A stretch of 64,000 nt of DNA from Thermotoga sp. KOL6 (GTDB lineage: Bacteria; Thermotogota; Thermotogae; Thermotogales; Thermotogaceae): NCBI RefSeq assembly GCF_002866025.1, contig NZ_LNDE01000001.1, forward strand, positions 62,001 to 126,000, in the 5' to 3' direction. Below, in pieces: positions 13,803-54,223 of this stretch. The stretch's first letter is position 1. Each line of letters starts with the position of its first letter. The notes beneath the pieces were generated by a model. That model worked only from the letters and a program-made list of their open reading frames with translations. It was not told the origin of the DNA and made no database searches. A program made the position numbers and the translations under genes.

Positions 13803-14393
13803 TCATTTTTTTCTTCTTTCCAGTTCTTTCATGACATCTTGAATGGTAATTCCCGATTCTACCATGAGAACTGTAAGGTGATAGAGCATATCCGCTATTT
13901 CCCAGACTAAATTTTCTTTGTCATTTTGAAGATAGCCCAATATCACTTCAATCGCTTCTTCTCCGAATTTCTTCGCGATCTTTCCCTTTCCTTCTTTAAA
14001 AAGCTTCACTGTATAAGATCCTTCTGGCATCTCTTCCTTTCTTTTTTTCACCAATCTGTACAATTCCAGCCAGAAAATAGAAGTGCTGCTGTCCTCAAAT
14101 TTGTGTTCAACTTTGAAAAAACAAGACCTGTTTCCCGTATGACAAGCCACTTTGTCTTCAGGGAAATCCACTATATACAGGTATGCATCATCATCACAAT
14201 CTCTTCTTATTTCGACTACTTTCATCGTATTTCCGGATGTTTCACCTTTTTTCCAGATTTTTTGTCTTTCTCTGGAAAAAAAGTGAGCGTATCCTGTCTT
14301 CTTAGTCAGCTCCAAAGCTTCCTCATTTGCGTAGGCAAGCATAAGAATTTCACCTGTTGTTCTTTCCTGAACCACGACAGGATAAAGTTCCAT
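13803..14393 (-). CDS. hisIE: Bifunctional phosphoribosyl-AMP cyclohydrolase / phosphoribosyl-ATP pyrophosphatase
   Basis: 196 residues. The HisI half comes first ([30 protein letters not shown] with zinc cysteines). The HisE all-helical half follows ([26 protein letters not shown]). It carries out steps 2 and 3 of histidine synthesis. The ATG 14393 overlaps the hisF TGA (TGATG). It is the last gene of the his operon. Confidence 0.97.
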
Positions 14394-15154
14394 CACATTC
14401 CCTCCATCCTCACACTTATCCCGTGATCTTTCAGAAATTTTTTTAGTTTCTTCACATCTATCTCTCGAAAATGAAAAACAGAGGCTGCAAGGGCAGCATC
14501 CGCGCCAGCGTTGAAAGCTTCGAGGAAATGTTTCATTTCTCCTGCTCCGCCGGAAGCAATGATGGGAAGGCCTGTAAGAGATCTTACAAATTCTATCATT
14601 TCCACATCGTATCCCATCTTTGTTCCGTCTCTGTCTATGCTAGTAAGAAGGATTTCACCTGCCCCTCTCTTTTCGATCTCTTGTACCCAATTTTCCAAGA
14701 GAATACCAGTGTTTTTCTTTCCAGAGTAAGTGAATACGACAAATTTTCCATCGATTCTTTTGGCATCTATTGCCACGACCACCGCTTGACTCCCAAAGGT
14801 TCGGGCGATCTTCGTGATGAGTTCGGGTTTTTCAACTGCCGCCGTATTTATGCTCACTTTGTCTGCACCGCGTAGGATCAACTCAGAGGCAGTCTCAAAA
14901 TCGTGTATTCCTCCACCCACTGTAAAGGGAATATCTATTTCTTCCGCTACCTTCTCAACCAATTCGAGCATGGTTCTCCTCTTTTCTACAGAAGCTGTTA
15001 TATCGAGGAAAACAAGCTCATCGATTCCTTCTTCAGAATAAAGCTTTCCGAGTTCCACTGGATCTCCACTATCTCGAAGGTTTTCGAAATTCGTTCCTTT
15101 CACCACCCTACCATCTTTCACATCAAGACAGGCTATTATCCTCTTGGCGAGCAT
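14393..15154 (-). CDS. hisF: Imidazole glycerol phosphate synthase cyclase subunit
   Basis: 253 residues, a TIM barrel. Catalytic Asp11 ([10 protein letters not shown]) and the second acid near residue 130 (VVVAIDAK) are present, as are the phosphate-binding glycines ([15 protein letters not shown]). It uses ammonia from HisH to form IGP and AICAR. The ATG overlaps the end of hisA by 32 nt. The sequence is close to the T. maritima protein but has many substitutions. Confidence 0.98.
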
Positions 15155-15869
15155 ACTTTTTCATCACCTCAACTGTGAGAATTCCTTCCAAAAAAGCTCT
15201 TCCCACGATTACACCCTCCAGCAGTCCGTTTGTTCTTTTGTGAATCTCCAAAGCCTTCTTTAAAGAAGTTTCAGACGATATCCCACCCGCAGCTATCACT
15301 TTCAATCCGGTTTCAACAGCGATTTTTTCTGTTAAAGAAAAATCATGAGTTTGGAGAGTACCGTCCTTTTCCACGTCTGTGTGTATAACCTCATCGAGTC
15401 CCCACTTTTTTAACTCTTCAAGGAGGATAATGGGATCTGTTTCTTTTTCAGACAACCAACCTTTGTACGCTATCTTTCCACTTCTTGTGTCCAGACTGAA
15501 AACAGGGTCTATTCCTATCTCTTTTAGCTCCCTCAAGAAGCTCGGATCTTCTAATACTTTCGAACTCACGATTTGTCTTTTAAATCCCATGTTCAACAAC
15601 GATTTTGCGTATTCTATTGCTCTGATTCCTCCGCCGATCTGGATACAACCAGCGTACGGTGAAAGCTTTTTCAAAACGGTGAAATTCGCACCACTACCGT
15701 CTATCGCTCGAGAGAGATCCACTACGTGAATCAAAACAAATCCTTCTTTCACTAAATGAGATACCATTTCAACTGGATCTTTTTCATAAAAAATGACATC
15801 ACTTTTCCTTCCTTTCATCATTCTTACCACTTTACCCTCATAAAGGTCTACTGCTGGAATAACGAACAT
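15123..15869 (-). CDS. hisA: ProFAR isomerase
   Basis: 248 residues, a TIM barrel paralogous to HisF. Catalytic acids Asp8 ([10 protein letters not shown]) and the one near 127 (FSLDTRSG) are visible. It performs the Amadori isomerisation of ProFAR to PRFAR. The C-terminus (about seven residues, QEDNSLS) runs past where the T. maritima protein ends in my memory, creating the 32-nt overlap with hisF. Its start overlaps hisH by 22 nt. Confidence 0.97.
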
Positions 15870-16453
15870 TCGATCACCCTTTCGAGAAGTTTTCGACCGA
15901 TTTTCGAGCTTTTTTCAGGATGAAATTGGAAACCCAGTATTTTGTTCTTTCTGACAGCAGATGGGAAAATTTCTCCATCGTATTCTGTGGTTCCCAGAAC
16001 GTATTCTTCGCCACAGACAACTCTGTAGGTGTGAACGAAATAGTAATATCCGCTCGGGAACGACCTATCTTTGAATAAAACCTCGTTCCATCCCATATGA
16101 GGGAGTCTTTTGCTACTGAGTTTTACTACACTGCCTTTTATTAGAGAAAGTCCGTCTATTTCAGGTGCTTCTTCGCTTTTTTCAAAGAGGAGTTGCATTC
16201 CAAGACACACACCCACTATGTATTTCCCAGATTCAACATGTTGCCTTATAAAGTTGATCAAATCGCTCTCTTTCAGTCTTTTCATTCCTTCTCTAAAATG
16301 CCCAACGCCCGGGATGAACAAAAGGTCGTAGAAACCTGTCGGTGCCTCCACGAGATCAATGGAGATCCCGTCGTATTTTTCTGAAGCTTTTTTCACACCC
16401 CGATAAAGATTCATGATGTTACCTGGTCCAACTGATATTATTCCTATTTTCAA
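15848..16453 (-). CDS. hisH: Imidazole glycerol phosphate synthase glutaminase subunit
   Basis: 201 residues, a class I glutamine amidotransferase. Nucleophile Cys83 lies in [10 protein letters not shown], and the His/Glu pair in FHPEKS. The oxyanion-strand motif IPGVGHF is also present. It supplies ammonia to HisF. The start overlaps hisB by 4 nt. Confidence 0.97.
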
Positions 16454-17037
16454 TCTATCACACCCTTGGTAGTCCTCGTCTCAGAACTTTCTAAAGCTCG
16501 GGCAATGGCGAGGCCGAAAGATTTCATAGCAGATTCAGAGATGTGATGATCGTTCCTTCCAAAGAACTTGAAGAAATGGACAGTAATACGAGCATGATTC
16601 ACAAAACCTTTCATGAATTCTTCAAAACCCTCAACGGGCATGTCTTCTATTTTCTCCACGGAGAATTCAAAGTTTTTCTGGAAAAAAGGCCTTCCAGAAA
16701 GATCCACGTAACATCCGATCAGCGCTTCGTTCATAGGAATAGTGGCTTCTCCGAATCTTCTTACTTTTGTGTAGTCAAAGAGCTCTCTGAACGCTCTCCC
16801 AAGGGAAATACCAAAATCCTCTATTAAGTGATGAAGAATACCATCTTTGCTCTCACACGTGCTGATTCTCAACCCCAAACCCGAAAAATGGCAAAAGGTG
16901 TTCAGAAGGTGGTCAAAGAAATTCACACCAGTACTCCCATCCAACCTTCCTCGAACAGTGTCGAGCGTTATGGAAATTTCGATTTCGTTGGTATTCCGCT
17001 GAACAATTACACCGTTTTCCACTCTCTCTATCGTCAT
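16450..17037 (-). CDS. hisB: Imidazoleglycerol-phosphate dehydratase
   Basis: 195 residues, the monofunctional dehydratase without a phosphatase domain. The metal-binding histidine motifs [18 protein letters not shown] and [13 protein letters not shown] are present. GGAGGGG lies about 6 nt before the ATG, inside the end of hisC (4-nt overlap). No histidinol-phosphate phosphatase gene is found in the operon, so that step must be encoded elsewhere. Confidence 0.97.
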
Positions 17038-18041
17038 TTGAACCCCTCCAATTCTCTTAATATGGCATCATTCTCTTCGCGTGTTCCAACTGTGATTCTA
17101 ACACCTTCTTTGAAGACACGAACGGCTATACCTTTGCAGCGAAAAAGATCTACCAGTCTATTTCTTTTCTCCCCTTCCAGGAAGATGAAAACGAAATTTC
17201 CTCGAGAATCTGTGATGGAATATCCCATCTCTTTCAAGACTTTTTTCATTCTCTCCCTTTCTTCCACTATGAATTGGACTCTGTCTTTGAAAATATTCAC
17301 ATGATCCAAAGCAACTTTGGCAAAAGTTTGAGAAACGTAACTCACATTGAAAGGAAGCCTCACTCTGTTGTAAGCGTCTATGAACTTTTCAGATGAAAGC
17401 ACATAGCCAATCCTCTGAGCAGCGAGAGAAAAAGCCTTGGAAAATGTTCTTAATATTGCGATATTATCGTACTCTTTAAGAAGATCTATGTAGCTCCTCC
17501 CGTGAAATTCGTAATACGCTTCATCGAGTGCCACGAAAGCTCCCGTTTGCAAAATCCTCTCAATTTCATCTTTTTCGAAAATATGACCCGTGGGATTGTT
17601 TGGATTGGGAATAAAAACGACGTCACCTTCTCCGACTTCTACTTCCGGCAAGTGAAATCCTTCTTTGAGAGGAACTTCTAAATACTTCATTCCCACCGCT
17701 TTGGCAAAGATCTTGTAACAGCTGTAAGTGGGAGGGAAGAAGACCACTCGATTGAACATCAGCATCATGACATATATGATCTCATCTGCTCCGTTTCCTA
17801 TAGAAACGTTTTTCTTAGTAAGGAAATCTTTCTCCACATAGGAAAGTAGTTTTTCTATGAGTTCCTCGTCTGGTGAGTCATAGTATATCCTCATTTTGTC
17901 GCTGTCTAATTTTCTGAAGACTTCTTTCGTGAGTTCTTTTGGAAAGGAGAAAGGATTTTCATTCAGCGCCAAATAGATTCCGGTCCTTTCTTCTGTAGTG
18001 TAGGGATAAGCACTTTTTGATATCACATCGAGAGGATTCAC
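17034..18041 (-). CDS. hisC: Histidinol-phosphate aminotransferase
   Basis: 335 residues, the same length as T. maritima HisC from memory. It is a PLP fold-type I enzyme: LALNENPF near the N-terminus, [17 protein letters not shown] and the PLP lysine in [13 protein letters not shown]. The frame is open upstream to 18122, but GTG 18041 (product begins with NPLDV) has a Shine-Dalgarno and overlaps the hisD TGA as GTGA. It transfers the amino group from glutamate. Confidence 0.97.
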
Positions 18042-19324
18042 AACATATCCCTCCTCACATCGACTGCCCGCGCGTGAGCCTCGAAACCCTCCCACCTTGC
18101 CATTTTCGAGTATATTCTCCACTTTTCTTCAAAGGCTTCTTTTGAAACGTGCGTAACGAAGATCTTTTTCGTGAAGTCTGATACTCTCAAACCTGAAGAA
18201 AATCTTGCAGATCGGAATGTAGGAAGAACGTGGTTTGGGCCTATACCGTAATCTCCAACAGATTCGCAAGTGTATTTCCCCAGAAAGACGGATCCCGCGT
18301 TTTTTACATAACCGAGGTATTCAAAAGGATTCTCTACGAGTATTTCCAAATGCTCTGGAGCAATGAGGTTGGATATCTGAAAGGCTCTTTTTAAATTCTC
18401 GACAAGAATGACGATACCAAAATTCTGAATAGAGGCTTCTGCTGTTTTCTTTCTTTCCACCGGAAGAGATAAGAGTTGTTTATTTATCACTTCTGGTAGC
18501 TTCTCAAACACTTCCAATGAGGTCGTTATGACCACACTCATAGCACTCTCATCGTGTTCTGCTTGTGAAAGAAAATCTGCCGCCACGAAATCCAAAGGGA
18601 CACTGCCATCGGTGACGATTGCGATCTCACTGGGACCAGCTATCGAGTCTATACCCACATCTCCAAAGACGCGTTTTTTGGCAAGGGTAACAAAGATCCC
18701 ACCCGGTCCCACAATTTTGTCAACAGGTTTCACTGTGTTGGTCCCGTAAGCAAGAGTTGCTATTGCATGAGCGCCTCCCATTTTGTAGATTTCTTTCAAA
18801 CCGAGAATTTCACAAACTTTCAGAATGTATGGAGAAATTTTTCCGTTCTCGTTCGGTGGTGTGGTGACCACAATCCTCTCTACTCCAGCGATCATCGCAG
18901 GGACAGCACACATGAGAAGAGTAGAAAAATATGAAACCTTTCCTCCAGGAACGTATATCCCCACGCTATTCAAGGGTACAACCATTTCTCCCAAAAAACT
19001 TCCATTCGATGTTGTGAAAAAGAAAGAATTTTCCTTCTGCCTCATATGGAATGTTTTTAAATCTTCTACCACTGTTTTCACAGTCTCGATGAACTCTTTT
19101 TCCACTCTTGCTTCTTTTATCTCTTCATCGGTAACTAAGAGATGATCAACTGTTATTGGATACTTTTCAAATTTTCTAAGAAATTCGCTGAGAGCATTGT
19201 CTCCCTCCATCTTCACCTTTTGGACGATTTCTTCAACTTCTTTCTCTATCTCTGAGACGGACTTCATTCTTTTCTCAAGAAGTCTCAAAATATCAGAGTC
19301 ATTGGGATTTTTCACCTTTATCAA
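18038..19324 (-). CDS. hisD: Histidinol dehydrogenase
   Basis: 428 residues. It performs the last two NAD-linked oxidations of histidine synthesis. Visible motifs are [17 protein letters not shown], the zinc-ligand stretch [11 protein letters not shown], and APEHLEI. The TTG start at 19324 follows GGGAGG by about 9 nt and lies within hisG (26-nt overlap). Confidence 0.97.
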
Positions 19325-19922
19325 TTTCCATCACCTCCCGAATCTTTTCAAGAAAAGTGACAATTTCTTTTCTTTTCGTTCTGTAACTGACTGGATTCAC
19401 AACAACGTGCGTTCTTATGATGAATATCTCATCCAAAACTTCCAAATTGTTCTCCTTCAAAGTTCTACCGGTTTCCGTGATATCAACGATGAGATCAGAT
19501 AATCCCGCGATTGGAGCAAGCTCCACAGAACCTTTCAAAGAGATGATCTTGCAATGCCATCCTTTTGTTTCACAATACCTTCTGGTGATGCGTGGAAATT
19601 TGGTTGCTATTCTTTTTTCTCCCTCAGGCATTTTCTGCCCCTTTGGTGCTGCAAGGACCATCTTACTCACATTTGTAGGGATAAAAAAAGGTTGAATGAG
19701 ATTCGTCTCCCTTTCTAAAAGAACATCCGTCCCACAAAAACCGATATCCGCAGCCCCTTGGATGAGGTATGTGGGAACGTCAAACGGTCTCACCAAGAAG
19801 CATCTTAAGTCTTTCCCTTCGAGAAGGATGGAAGATTCCTTCTCAAATGAGTATCCTGCTTTTTTCAAATATTCCATTACAGATTTTTCCAATCTTCCTT
19901 TTGGTACAGCCAACTTTAACAT
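19299..19922 (-). CDS. hisG: ATP phosphoribosyltransferase, short form
   Basis: 207 residues, the short HisG that lacks the regulatory C-terminal domain and needs HisZ. The start AVPKGRLEKS and the PRPP-binding loop DLIVDITETGRTLKENNL are diagnostic. It commits ATP and PRPP to the pathway. GGAGGGG precedes the ATG. The start overlaps hisZ by 7 nt. Confidence 0.97.
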   Translation of the reverse strand: MLKLAVPKGRLEKSVMEYLKKAGYSFEKESSILLEGKDLRCFLVRPFDVPTYLIQGAADIGFCGTDVLLERETNLIQPFFIPTNVSKMVLAAPKGQKMPEGEKRIATKFPRITRRYCETKGWHCKIISLKGSVELAPIAGLSDLIVDITETGRTLKENNLEVLDEIFIIRTHVVVNPVSYRTKRKEIVTFLEKIREVMEIDKGEKSQ

Positions 19923-20740
19923 GTTTTCCCCTCCAGAAAGATGGAACCACCTACTCCTTTTTCACCGTTTGTTGAGTACTCCCCACCTGCAGCTACAAGC
20001 TTGGAAGAAAACACGTCGTAAACGATGAAAATGATTCCGCTGTACTCTTCCACAGTTCTTGCGAGTGTGAGATCCACTTCAACGGAAATCTGTTTGAATC
20101 TTCTCTGAAGGAAAGACGCTACTTCAATGAGTTCTTCTTTTACCGAAGCGGGAAGGTCCATTCCATCGAGGTTTTGAGGAGAGCGCCTGTAGATACTATC
20201 CTCGATGATCTTCTCAATCTTCGAAAGATCGATATCTTTTACACGAGATAGAAACTCTATCTCCGCCAAATTTTTTGCATCTATGAGGTCCAAGATTCTT
20301 TCATGGATCTCTTCGGGGACCCCTTCCAACAAATCTTCATAAACTTTCGTGTGTCCGATTTCCACTATCAAAGGTCCGGTAAACTTTTTTACAGTGGTTT
20401 CTAAGAGGATTTCGAGTACTTCCAGAGTATCGCTCAAAGAATTCCTGGGAATTTTTTCGAGACCTAAATGATATTCAGCTACCAGATCGCTTCCAAGGTA
20501 TCTGTAAACGAAATCTGCGTACCAAACTTTAACTGGTGATCCAGGTAGATGCTTTTTGCGATAATTAAGAATCGATTTCGTAAAATCTGAACGAATTGAG
20601 TAGAGGTTTCCTTTTCTGTCGATGAAAAAATCGGTTGTCTCTGTAATCGCTTCTGAACGCTCAAGGGCAGGCACGAAAAATGGTTTGTAACCAGATTTTG
20701 AGGCTTTTCTGTAAAAAGAAACTACCATTTCGAAATCCAA
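19916..20740 (-). CDS. hisZ: ATP phosphoribosyltransferase regulatory subunit
   Basis: About 274 residues, a catalytically dead class II aaRS-like paralogue of HisS. It pairs with short HisG and gives histidine feedback control. Recognisable motifs are VPALERSEA, SIRSDFTKSIL and ARTVEEYSGIIF. TTG 20740 is 8 nt after GGGAGG. An in-frame GTG at 20749, the position that would match the start I remember for T. maritima, overlaps the ribosome site. It is the first structural gene after the attenuator. Confidence 0.92.
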   Translation of the reverse strand: MDFEMVVSFYRKASKSGYKPFFVPALERSEAITETTDFFIDRKGNLYSIRSDFTKSILNYRKKHLPGSPVKVWYADFVYRYLGSDLVAEYHLGLEKIPRNSLSDTLEVLEILLETTVKKFTGPLIVEIGHTKVYEDLLEGVPEEIHERILDLIDAKNLAEIEFLSRVKDIDLSKIEKIIEDSIYRRSPQNLDGMDLPASVKEELIEVASFLQRRFKQISVEVDLTLARTVEEYSGIIFIVYDVFSSKLVAAGGEYSTNGEKGVGGSIFLEGKTC

Positions 20741-20765
20741 GCAGTTCACCTCCCTAAAATAAACG

Positions 20766-20793
20766 AAAAGGCCACGTCTTTTTCGACGTGGCC
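20766..20793 (-). terminator. Attenuator terminator in the his leader
   Basis: Perfect 9-bp stem GGCCACGTC / GACGTGGCC with a 6-nt loop, followed by TTTTCGTTTATTTT on the minus strand. It lies between the leader peptide stop and hisZ, 26 nt before the TTG. Its 5' arm competes with upstream GGCCCG (20840-20835). Confidence 0.85.
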
Positions 20794-20794
20794 C

Positions 20795-20840
20795 GTACGA
20801 TTTCTCACCAAGTATTTCCCGGTGGAGAAACCGCCGGGCC
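20795..20840 (-). promoter_or_regulatory. Alternative stems of the his attenuator
   Basis: Three mutually exclusive pairings are visible. P1: CCCGG (20838-20834) with CCGGG (20822-20818). P2: 20832-20821 with 20809-20799, eleven pairs and one bulge. P3: GGCCCG (20840-20835) with CGGGCC (20795-20790). P2 and P3 stack into one long hairpin that removes the 5' arm of the terminator; P1 prevents it. This is the architecture of a ribosome-controlled attenuator. Confidence 0.7.
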
Positions 20841-20894
20841 TTTTCGATGATGGAAATGTTCAGTTAGTGTTTTGGATTCGATCCATGTCCTCAT
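20805..20894 (-). CDS. His operon leader peptide (29 codons, HFHH)
   Basis: ATG 20894 opens 29 codons ending at TGA 20805. Residues 13-16 are His-Phe-His-His (CAT TTC CAT CAT), placed just before the first attenuator arm. AAGGAGG (20913-20907) lies about 12 nt upstream, a little far but strong. The stop codon falls inside the 3' arm of P2, so a finished ribosome would block the antiterminator. It is inferred to sense charged tRNA-His. Confidence 0.72.
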   Translation of the reverse strand: MRTWIESKTLTEHFHHRKGPAVSPPGNTW

Positions 20895-20920
20895 TTCCTT
20901 TCCGTACCTCCTTGGACTTT

Positions 20921-20929
20921 ATTCTACCA
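20921..20929 (-). promoter_or_regulatory. Candidate extended -10 of the his operon
   Basis: Minus strand TGG-TAGAAT. The expected transcript start, near 20914, falls right at the leader Shine-Dalgarno. No convincing -35 is present. Confidence 0.5.
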
Positions 20930-20978
20930 TTTTTGTTTGTAAATTCACCATTTTGAATAACTTTTTTAAAAAACTCGG

Positions 20979-20987
20979 TGTTAGAAT
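20979..20987 (+). promoter_or_regulatory. Candidate extended -10 for the ArsB/NhaD-type gene
   Basis: Reads TGT-TAGAAT, 26 nt before the ATG at 21014. The his promoter lies about 50 nt away on the other strand. Confidence 0.45.
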
Positions 20988-21013
20988 TATCCCGTGACAA
21001 GGAGGCGGATAGA

Positions 21014-22279
21014 ATGAATGAAGCACTACTCGTGATAATTTTCGCAATCCTTGCGTATTATTTCATAATCTTTGGGAAAATAGCCAAATCTGTCATAACA
21101 CTTCTGATAGCCCTCTTCCTCATGGCCATTCGTGTGGTGGAAGGGTTAGAGCTCAAGAACATAGGAGAAGTAGTTGATTTCAACACACTTGGGCTTCTTT
21201 TTGGTATGATGATCATCGTTCATATTTTGAAAGGAACCGGTTTCTTCGAGTATCTCGCCATTTCTGCAGTTAAGATTTCGAAAGGACGATTTTGGTTACT
21301 TTTCGGTTTTCTCATGGTTCTTACAGCAGTAACTTCCGCTTTTCTAGACAATCTCATAACGATTATCTTGCTTTCTCCTATCTTGTTCCTGATTTTGGAC
21401 ACTATGGAAGTAAATCCCGTACCATTTTTCCTTATGGCGATTTTTATCGACAACATAGGAGGTATGTCCACACTTATTGGAAGTCCTTTGAACATCGTTC
21501 TTGGTTCGATCAGTGGCCTGAGTTTCAATGACTTTTTGAAGAACATGGGTCCCGTCGCCGTTCTTATGTTCATAATAGTTTTTTTCCTGTTCAGAAGATA
21601 TACGAAACTCGAGGAAAAATCCCTTGAAAAGTTGAAGAACCTCGAAAACGTGGATCCTACCAGATCGATCACGGATCCTGTGGTTCTCAAGAAGTCGTTG
21701 TTCGTTTTTCTTTCAACTCTGGTGTTGTTTGGCCTTCATTCCGTGATAGAAGTGGAGCTTTCTCTCATAGCACTCATTGCAGCATGTGTCTTGTTGTTGA
21801 TTCTCGGCAAAGATTTTGAAAAAGTTTCTGAAGGAATTGATTGGGACACACTGTTTTTCTATGTAGGACTCTTCATCATTTCTTATTCCTTGGAACAAAT
21901 TGGTGCCATGGAGGCACTTGCCAATTTCTTGAAAATGTTTTCCTTCAACAGATATCTCTTCATTTTTGTGGTAGTTTGGTTCTCTATTTTCGCTAATGCC
22001 TTTTTGAGTGCTGTTCCGGCTACTTTGATTTTGGCGCCCACATTGAAGATTCTCGTTTCTCAAGGTTTCCCAACTTCCCTGTGGTGGGTGTATGCTATCG
22101 GAGCAAATCTCGGCACGAATCTCACTCCATTGGGAGCTGTTCAGAATATAGTGGGGCTTTCTCTCTTGGAGAAGTACACCGGGCACACTGTAAATTTCAA
22201 GGAGTTTCTCAAAACCGCGTGGAGTTACATGTTCATACCGTTTGTTGTAGCGACTCTCTACTCATTTATCATATTTTAA
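21014..22279 (+). CDS. ArsB/NhaD-type ion transporter
   Basis: About 421 residues with roughly 11 hydrophobic segments. It belongs to the ion transporter (ArsB / NhaD / CitMHS) superfamily: the paired re-entrant motifs SAFLDNLITIILLSP and GANLGTNLTPLGAVQN are visible. It could expel arsenite or exchange Na+ for H+; sequence alone does not choose, and no arsR or arsC is nearby. AAGGAGG is 8 nt before ATG 21014; an upstream in-frame start at 20978 lies in the promoter. The 3' end overlaps the converging hydrolase by 18 nt. Confidence 0.82.
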   Translation: MNEALLVIIFAILAYYFIIFGKIAKSVITLLIALFLMAIRVVEGLELKNIGEVVDFNTLGLLFGMMIIVHILKGTGFFEYLAISAVKISKGRFWLLFGFLMVLTAVTSAFLDNLITIILLSPILFLILDTMEVNPVPFFLMAIFIDNIGGMSTLIGSPLNIVLGSISGLSFNDFLKNMGPVAVLMFIIVFFLFRRYTKLEEKSLEKLKNLENVDPTRSITDPVVLKKSLFVFLSTLVLFGLHSVIEVELSLIALIAACVLLLILGKDFEKVSEGIDWDTLFFYVGLFIISYSLEQIGAMEALANFLKMFSFNRYLFIFVVVWFSIFANAFLSAVPATLILAPTLKILVSQGFPTSLWWVYAIGANLGTNLTPLGAVQNIVGLSLLEKYTGHTVNFKEFLKTAWSYMFIPFVVATLYSFIIF

Positions 22280-52878: not shown

Positions 52879-53400
52879 TTGAAAATTTTGGTAGGTTCAA
52901 CAGTTTCTTTGGAAGAGTTTGAAAGAGTCGATCTTTTCATTTCTTGGTTAGATATAATACCAAGCAACGCCAATTTTTCCGTTGTAGGAACGGAAAAATT
53001 CTTTATAGTGGGCAGGCAAGGAAAGGAGTGGAAAAAAGGATACGAATTCGGTATAGCGGATGTTGGATTGAAAGTTTTCGTGGTAGGGGGGGAACTCTCT
53101 CTTTATCCGGAAGCATTCTACATAGCTAAAGAAAGTGGAGCGAAGCTTCTCATCGGATTTTGTGACGTCCAAAATTTTGTAGATTTCAATTTCATCAAGG
53201 CAAAATTTTGGGCTCATACCCAAGAAACGGAAGTTGCATCGATAGCGCTTTTGAATTTCCAAGGTAAAGTTCACAACAACATTTACTTTCCTCTCGAAAA
53301 AACCAGGAATCGAACGGGTATCGTGGCGGAAGGTGTGGCACCCGTTTTTATCGAGTTTGAAGAAAATTCTTTCTCTTCAGGAGATTATAAAAATGTTTGA
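52879..53400 (+). CDS. Nitrilase-like protein lacking the catalytic Cys, first copy
   Basis: 173 residues; no close family recognised. The layout ELSLYPEAFYIAKESGAKLLIGF followed by KFWAHTQETEVASIALLNFQGKVHNN resembles the second half of a C-N hydrolase (C-x-D-x-x-FPE, then the TE-A-N stretch), but the position of the nucleophilic Cys reads Gly and the first half is very short. A non-catalytic or structural role is inferred. TTG 52879 has a weak GGGTGGGA site. Confidence 0.5.
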   Translation: MKILVGSTVSLEEFERVDLFISWLDIIPSNANFSVVGTEKFFIVGRQGKEWKKGYEFGIADVGLKVFVVGGELSLYPEAFYIAKESGAKLLIGFCDVQNFVDFNFIKAKFWAHTQETEVASIALLNFQGKVHNNIYFPLEKTRNRTGIVAEGVAPVFIEFEENSFSSGDYKNV

Positions 53401-54223
53401 GAATCTATTTTGGAGGATGGCAAGAAAGAAGCTTGTCCCAAAGAGAAAAATTTCAAGAACACACCGTGAAAGAAACGGTGTGAAAAGGGTGGTTTGTGTT
53501 TCGTTCCCTCTGAATCAAACGTTCAGGTCCGCTGACGAATTCATAGATTCTCTCATGGAAATCATAAAGGAAGATTTGTTCTTTATCGATCTTTTGATAT
53601 TTCCAAGACTAACTGGTAATCTCCTTATGGGCGTTTTTCCTTTCAAAACCGGAAAATTCGAAAAGCTAGAACCTTTCTATACGGATCTGCTTCGTTACAT
53701 ATCAAGAAATTTAAATGTTCCTGTGATATCACCTGGTGTGGAAACTTTCAAGATGCTTTCTGATGTCCTTGTGGTGAGAAATGGAGAAATCGTAAAAAGA
53801 TACATTCCACAAAGCAAACGAGTAATCGTAGACCTGGGAAATTGGTTCGTATCGATCCTTGGAAAAGAGGATATCTTCTCCTCCAAGGTCTTGAGACCTA
53901 TGGTAGAAAAAGAGGTGTTCACATTCATACACTTCGATTTGGAAACAGAAGAGAAAGACTGGTGGGAAGAAAAGAAAGGATTATGGGCCAGGTCCCAAAG
54001 TCTTGAAGTATTCGGTGTGAAACTTTCTCCTAGAGGGACATTTTTCAACAATTCGTATCACGGAAAGAGTTACATAAGTGCTCCAATACCTCTAACTCCA
54101 AATTTGACAGGTTTTTTGCGGCAGAATGGTGGTGTAAAGATATCCGCTGATCTCGAAATCAATCTTCTAAAAGAGAGAAGACATAAGATAGATGCAGTGA
54201 GGTATTTTCTGTTCAGAAGGTGA
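53393..54223 (+). CDS. Nitrilase-like protein lacking catalytic residues, second copy
   Basis: About 276 residues from ATG 53393, which overlaps the previous stop. IIKEDLFFIDLLIFPRLTG matches the nitrilase LIVFPE strand but with Arg for the catalytic Glu. LWARSQSLEVFGVKLSPRG resembles the ARAxEN segment, and HGKSYISAPIP the GxSxIxxP end. No Cys occupies the nucleophile spot. The two adjacent genes look like tandem degenerate members of the same superfamily. Confidence 0.5.
   Translation: MFENLFWRMARKKLVPKRKISRTHRERNGVKRVVCVSFPLNQTFRSADEFIDSLMEIIKEDLFFIDLLIFPRLTGNLLMGVFPFKTGKFEKLEPFYTDLLRYISRNLNVPVISPGVETFKMLSDVLVVRNGEIVKRYIPQSKRVIVDLGNWFVSILGKEDIFSSKVLRPMVEKEVFTFIHFDLETEEKDWWEEKKGLWARSQSLEVFGVKLSPRGTFFNNSYHGKSYISAPIPLTPNLTGFLRQNGGVKISADLEINLLKERRHKIDAVRYFLFRR

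Follow-up and report, generated by a model that had tools for sequence, protein, structure and literature searches.

Why should a transcript that leads into the histidine biosynthesis operon first encode a short peptide containing His codons and then an intrinsic terminator? This arrangement stands upstream of hisZ in the 64,000-nucleotide stretch of Thermotoga sp. KOL6 DNA analysed here (the window). A first-pass annotation of the locus had described an extended −10, a Shine–Dalgarno sequence (SD), a 29-codon open reading frame (ORF) with CAT TTC CAT CAT, three stems and a terminator, and had read them as an attenuator controlled by the ribosome. All of these parts are present, at the positions collected in Table 1.

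A leader ORF with His codons precedes a complete his operon

Three of the four control codons (CAT at 20858, 20852 and 20849, with TTC at 20855) specify histidine, and the ORF that holds them sits before the his operon, as in the leader peptides of attenuators. The AAGGAGG lies 12 nt from the leader ATG, which is a long spacing, and a second purine run, GGAAAGGAA, is closer to the start codon. When upstream regions were compared, TGNTAGAAT was found at the same position in five same-genus leaders; no clear −35 match was seen upstream of the leader's extended −10, and a simple sigma-70 scan did not report this −10. GGAAATG, which spans the leader ATG, is complementary to CATTTCC within the His-Phe-His codons (window 20902–20850, minus strand), and their pairing may be an extra control of leader translation or mere chance.

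Only 11 nt separate the T-run of the leader from the SD of hisZ. We named hisZ from Pfam and from its match to 1USY, the regulatory subunit of ATP phosphoribosyltransferase; the best NCBIfam match, TIGR00443 hisZ, falls under the curated cut-off of that model. The longest hisZ ORF begins at GTG 20749, inside the SD (window 20738–20754, minus strand); the TTG at 20740, which is conserved, is more likely to be the true start, and the TTGGATTTC that follows the SD is common to relatives. The his genes after hisZ are close-packed or overlapping, and together they form a complete his operon 3′ of the leader.

Table 1 Features of the his leader locus and the operon behind it (window coordinates)
Feature	Position	Strand	Basis
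Extended −10 TGGTAGAAT, putative leader promoter	20921–20929	−	Sequence
SD of leader ORF, AAGGAGG	20907–20913	−	Sequence
Leader ORF, 29 codons + TGA, MRTWIESKTLTEHFHHRKGPAVSPPGNTW (ATG 20894; TGA 20807–20805)	20805–20894	−	Sequence; H-runs in the same place in relatives
Control codons CAT TTC CAT CAT (His Phe His His), region A	20847–20858	−	Sequence
Pre-emptor stem A:C, His codons (20864–20843) with stop-codon region (20812–20792)	20792–20864	−	Duplex energy
P1 hairpin, CCCGG (20838–20834) with CCGGG (20822–20818)	20818–20838	−	Sequence
Antiterminator B:C = P3 + P2; P3 arms GGCCCG (20840–20835) and CGGGCC (20795–20790); P2 arms CGGTTTCTCCACC with GGTGAGAAATCG, 12 bp, one bulge	20790–20840	−	Fold; 15-sequence alignment
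Intrinsic terminator GGCCACGTC-GAAAAA-GACGTGGCC-TTTT (arms 20793–20785 and 20778–20770; TTTT 20769–20766)	20766–20793	−	Sequence; 15-sequence pairing
hisZ, likely start TTG 20740, SD GGGAGGTG (20754–20747)	19916–20740	−	Pfam PF13393; PDB 1USY, E = 2e-127
hisG, hisD, hisC, hisB, hisH, hisA, hisF, hisIE	13803–19922	−	ORFs and NCBIfam

The folding energy of the leader lies 4.5 s.d. below that of shuffled sequences (z −4.5; 0 of 200 shuffles as stable). When shuffling was confined to the stretch that separates His codons and terminator, a ribosome stalled at His still gave the low terminator probability in 1/200, 0/200 and 1/200 cases for the window (G000), G004 and G026, respectively. By a simple survey, no other terminator of the 64-kb window is both preceded by a short ORF with an SD and followed by a gene, and a covariance model of the leader (below) has a single match in the window's genome at E ≤ 0.1. 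Upstream of trpE and ilvB, the two other regions inspected in that genome, no attenuator-like leader was seen.

Related leaders keep the His run while the rest of the peptide drifts

We searched 61 genomes for HisZ, 60 of them relatives and one that of the window, and compared the regions upstream. A covariance model, R1, built from 15 Thermotogales class I his leaders with the window's included, matched 16 of 103 Thermotogota genomes at E < 1e-13. The leader stands upstream of hisZ in 15/15 genomes with context examined; in the sixteenth, G001, leader and hisZ are on different contigs, and its leader was detected even though absent from the 15 building sequences. The window leader scores 92 bits over positions 1–98, a match to the whole model that stands directly before hisZ, a score that follows by construction from its place in the model. 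A DNA pattern search of genome contigs returned 53 loci, among which only L040 (Pseudothermotoga sp.) and L069 (Thermotogota bacterium) match R1 strongly; the rest, at 13–27 bits, were taken as chance.

The window peptide reads HFHH. Among the five other same-genus leaders (for example, MRIQRRIIKMFASIHHHHRFGPAVSPPGVWR) four have HHHH and one HCHH. Leaders of family f2 genus g9, which includes one Pseudothermotoga sp. genome, contain ...LNLVHHHVFDPVASPPGVA, those of family f3 ...NLHHHQNAPGVTPPGSF and those of family f6 ...EIHHHNRFCPAG...; the N-terminal half of the peptide varies between families and the His run is kept, as HHHH, HCHH or HHH in all related leaders. Whether relatives retain the His run and the stem pairs was a point on which the first-pass annotation had staked its reading, and they do retain both, with compensatory changes in the stems. 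In one genome the his leader is duplicated around an N-run (L014, G020:C10, about 53303–53494) and occurs again at a contig end (G020:C17:1–71), which is probably an assembly artefact and possibly a true tandem copy.

Antiterminator and terminator share a strand and co-vary

The annotation had proposed three competing stems. Their arms are present, but P2 and P3 are not independent and stack as one antiterminator helix, and the set lacked a further stem, between the His codons and the stop-codon region, which we call the pre-emptor. Across an alignment of 15 sequences (A1), 96.7% of antiterminator cells are intact, 17 of them compensatory, and sliding the pairs by 1–3 columns lowers this to 27–66%. 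All terminator cells are paired in the 15 sequences, with three positions changed on both sides; P1 is paired in 97% of cells and nearly invariant, and is thus without covariation support. The antiterminator and terminator have the GGCC strand in common, making the two folds mutually exclusive. Within it, column 93 (C/U/G) matches both column 23 of the antiterminator and column 112 of the terminator (each G/A/C) in 15/15 sequences, so that both alternative folds have been kept through the same changes; kinship among the sequences inflates such covariation counts, and the three states of column 93 stem from different families.

Because the MAFFT alignment A1 places the TGATGGTG segment about three columns off between families, we computed the pre-emptor duplex of each sequence separately and set it against a simple mononucleotide shuffle. 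The stem pairs CACCATCACG with CGTGATGGTG in G026 and CCACCATCAAAA with TTTTGATGGTGG in G038, and most class I relatives have duplex energies between −16.7 and −25.9 kcal/mol, with weaker values of −11.7 in G003 and −3.8 in G047. The window's pre-emptor is imperfect, at −12.9 kcal/mol. The RNAalifold consensus fold comprises part of the pre-emptor with P1 and the terminator. When growing transcripts were folded, the pre-emptor of most species formed before the antiterminator was complete and was back in the most stable state once the terminator was whole; in the window it appeared only briefly and was then outcompeted by the antiterminator. On these calculations, the stem is predicted to act as a protector, or pre-emptor, as in classic attenuators.

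Predicted termination depends on ribosome position

We modelled the leaders by equilibrium folding with an assumed ribosome footprint of −14 to +15 of the P site and parameters for 37 and 70 °C. With a ribosome stalled at the first His codon, the predicted terminator probability in the window was 0.04 at 37 °C and 0.10 at 70 °C, and with the ribosome at the stop codon it was 0.90 at both temperatures. Two steps of the mechanism put forward in the first-pass annotation thus hold in the model: a His stall frees the antiterminator, and a ribosome at the stop codon makes the P2 3′ arm unavailable, which favours termination. A third step, that RNA left untranslated would form P1 and terminate, failed for the window, whose ribosome-free RNA is predicted to form the antiterminator, leaving the terminator a probability of 0.18 at 37 °C and 0.05 at 70 °C. 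A protector stem that gives termination without translation was therefore not found in the window by equilibrium folding; we treat such a stem as a common feature of ribosome-mediated attenuators, not a defining one.

The ribosome-free value is 0.88–1.0 in most class I relatives (0.59 in G003 and 0.51 in G047), and the terminator that the free RNA of most relatives forms depends on pairing between the His codons and the stop-codon region as well as on P1. For stalled, stop-codon and free states the probabilities were 0.04, 0.82 and 0.89 in G004 and 0.05, 0.51 and 0.99 in G026; in family f2 the stop-codon state reached just 0.26–0.51. Calculations on the full transcript were unresponsive to stalling in G038, G040, G051, G094–G099 and G043, because their terminator is very stable, and responded in the wrong direction in G047.

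In a 70 °C scan of ribosome positions through the ORF, with values near the stop excluded since P3 there closes over the ribosome in a way that may not be physical, the antiterminator kept the terminator strand sequestered up to the entry of the last His codon into the A site and largely released it from that point. This switch point was seen in the window, G002, G004, G006, G010, G022 and G026, and release came one codon later in leaders of a second type (G060, G085 and G096); G038, G040 and G099 showed no clean switch point in the scan. Equilibrium folding of this kind supports the attenuation mechanism without proving it.

A TnpB gene separates leader and hisZ in a genome of Thermotoga maritima or a very close relative

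G006 has a HisZ that agrees with PDB 1USY, the T. maritima protein, at every one of 273 residues, so that G006 is T. maritima or very close to it. In this genome the leader is intact, and a gene for an IS605-type TnpB (Pfam OrfB_IS605 and Cas12f1-like TNB; L022 82–1299, minus strand) lies between the leader terminator and hisZ, so that switch and hisZ are about 1.4 kb apart. Part of a similar TnpB gene is found at a contig edge upstream of hisZ in G001 (L007 68–679). Expression of hisZ may be changed in strains with the insertion. Distance filters of the kind used in attenuator surveys would, we infer, miss a leader like that of G006, which suggests why the family may have been overlooked.

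Differently folded His leaders in other Thermotogota

HisG is present in 34 of the 103 genomes, and 26 of these 34 have a His leader (counting G001, where it is inferred across the contig break). Besides class I, ten further HisG-positive genomes have differently folded leaders with HHH or HHHH before hisZ, followed by a terminator. Type II leaders occur in nine genomes of family f9 (HHHTWRGRVNTCHVCC-like), and the type III leader of G051 reads WHHHHSN. Both types resemble class I in standing before hisZ with HHH or HHHH and in a terminator strand common with the antiterminator; their RNA sequences and stems are unlike those of class I. In type II leaders CATGTATG, within the ORF, forms the pre-emptor with the His codons and those following them; these leaders are too alike for covariation, with 0 pairs changed on both sides. 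One type II leader, otherwise confined to family f9, is on a 5-kb contig of a family f3 genome (L017, G043:C153), reflecting either bin contamination or transfer. No His leader was seen in the examined stretch before the his genes of G024, G049, G055, G059, G086, G101 and G102, and in G053 these genes are too close to a contig edge to judge.

Weak R1 matches (L093–L106, from families f5 and f9, and G014 of f2) are attenuator-like, with short SD-preceded ORFs and GGCC-type terminators. The genes behind them, amino-acid and peptide transporters among them, encode an aspartate kinase (L099), an APC permease (L095), SBP_bac_3 amino-acid binding proteins (L098 and L100), an SBP_bac_5 protein (L101), a citrate synthase (L102) and a Xaa-Pro dipeptidase-like amidohydrolase (L093); at L096, a 188-residue protein without assigned identity follows a leader with ...MAMIMCIYAPGGSPGF. 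A tentative reading, to which we give somewhat less than an even chance, is that leader-peptide attenuation is old and widespread for amino-acid genes of Thermotogota beyond his, with the window species a variant that has largely lost its pre-emptor and would read through when untranslated.

Proposed mechanism and alternatives

We are highly confident that the window leader is a ribosome-mediated transcription attenuator coupling the his operon to charged tRNA-His; it is real and conserved, and very probably functional. RNA polymerase would transcribe the leader with a ribosome following behind. When His-tRNA is short, the ribosome would halt on the His codons, letting B:C pair and take up the terminator's outer GGCC, and transcription would continue into hisZ. 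When His-tRNA is plentiful, a ribosome at the stop would cover the P2 3′ arm, the antiterminator would be blocked and transcription would end near 20766. Without a translating ribosome, most relatives would be expected to terminate through the His-codon/stop-region pairing, and the window species, with its weak pre-emptor, is predicted to read through. The replacement of one His control codon by Phe in the window counts against this assignment.

That replacement also bears on the best-surviving alternative, that the attenuator is decaying in the window species and its regulation is leaky or being lost. The HFHH of the window, set against the HHHH of four of its five same-genus counterparts, would fit such decay, as would the weak pre-emptor and a free RNA predicted to form the antiterminator. 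However, three His codons are left, no stem is disrupted, and the predicted difference between the stalled and stop-codon states ranks among the largest of the set; we consider decay improbable.

Less probable again, and in our view a long shot, is a free-standing gene for a small protein with its own terminator, hisZ being transcribed from a separate promoter and the arrangement being incidental. Such a gene would account for a terminator directly 3′ of a short ORF with an SD, and for the 1.4-kb insertion that parts leader from hisZ in G006. We reject it on the 11-nt spacing to the hisZ SD, on the conservation between families of the His run and not of the N-terminal half of the peptide, and on the covariation of the antiterminator strand with the terminator; three differently folded leader types, all with His runs before hisZ, also argue against it. 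A riboswitch or T-box sensing histidine or tRNA-His directly, with the ORF as a by-product, would likewise account for a strong RNA structure, terminator and antiterminator included, upstream of an amino-acid operon, but is rejected as very improbable because Rfam covariance models gave no family at gathering score in the window or ten loci (T-box RF00230 and RF00514 included) and because translation frame, SD and His codons persist as the remaining peptide drifts.

Comparison with known attenuators

Taking the leader to be an attenuator, its his control is apparently new for Thermotogota. The first-pass annotation knew of none in Thermotogales, and in open-access full text we found no description of a Thermotogota leader-peptide attenuator (one relevant survey is outside that scope); the main text of a paper on T. 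maritima genome organisation mentions neither attenuation nor histidine (PMC3636130). The kind itself is known outside Proteobacteria, as his leader-peptide attenuators have already been predicted in Firmicutes, namely in the Bacillus cereus group, Peptostreptococcaceae and Erysipelotrichales (PMC9413887; PMC2965389). Ribosome-mediated attenuation is hereby extended to a deep-branching, largely thermophilic phylum, in which coupled transcription, translation and RNA hairpins must function at high temperature. The aligned family also offers natural variants (HHHH, HCHH and HFHH, pre-emptors both strong and weak, and in one genome a transposon that parts switch from operon) that make the contribution of each part testable.

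Like that of Thermotogota, the enterobacterial hisL leader (RF00514) encodes tandem His codons, can fold into an antiterminator or a terminator, and precedes a complete his operon, under the same starvation logic. In the enteric scheme the partner of the pre-emptor is the antiterminator's 5′ arm, whereas in the class I leaders it is the 3′ arm, with the pairing running across the leader stop codon. The two have no sequence or covariance-model match, and RF00514 found nothing within 20600–21100 even at E ≤ 10. The enteric leader has seven His codons (PMC3896937), compared with three or four in Thermotogota. The Firmicutes leaders, also outside Proteobacteria, have runs of three to five His codons before his genes (hisZ in Bacillus) and are likewise without an RF00514 match (PMC9413887); they belong to another phylum, and the likeness is one of description between two sets of predictions. 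The mechanism is thus of a known kind, and the RNA family that carries it in Thermotogota is new and absent from Rfam.
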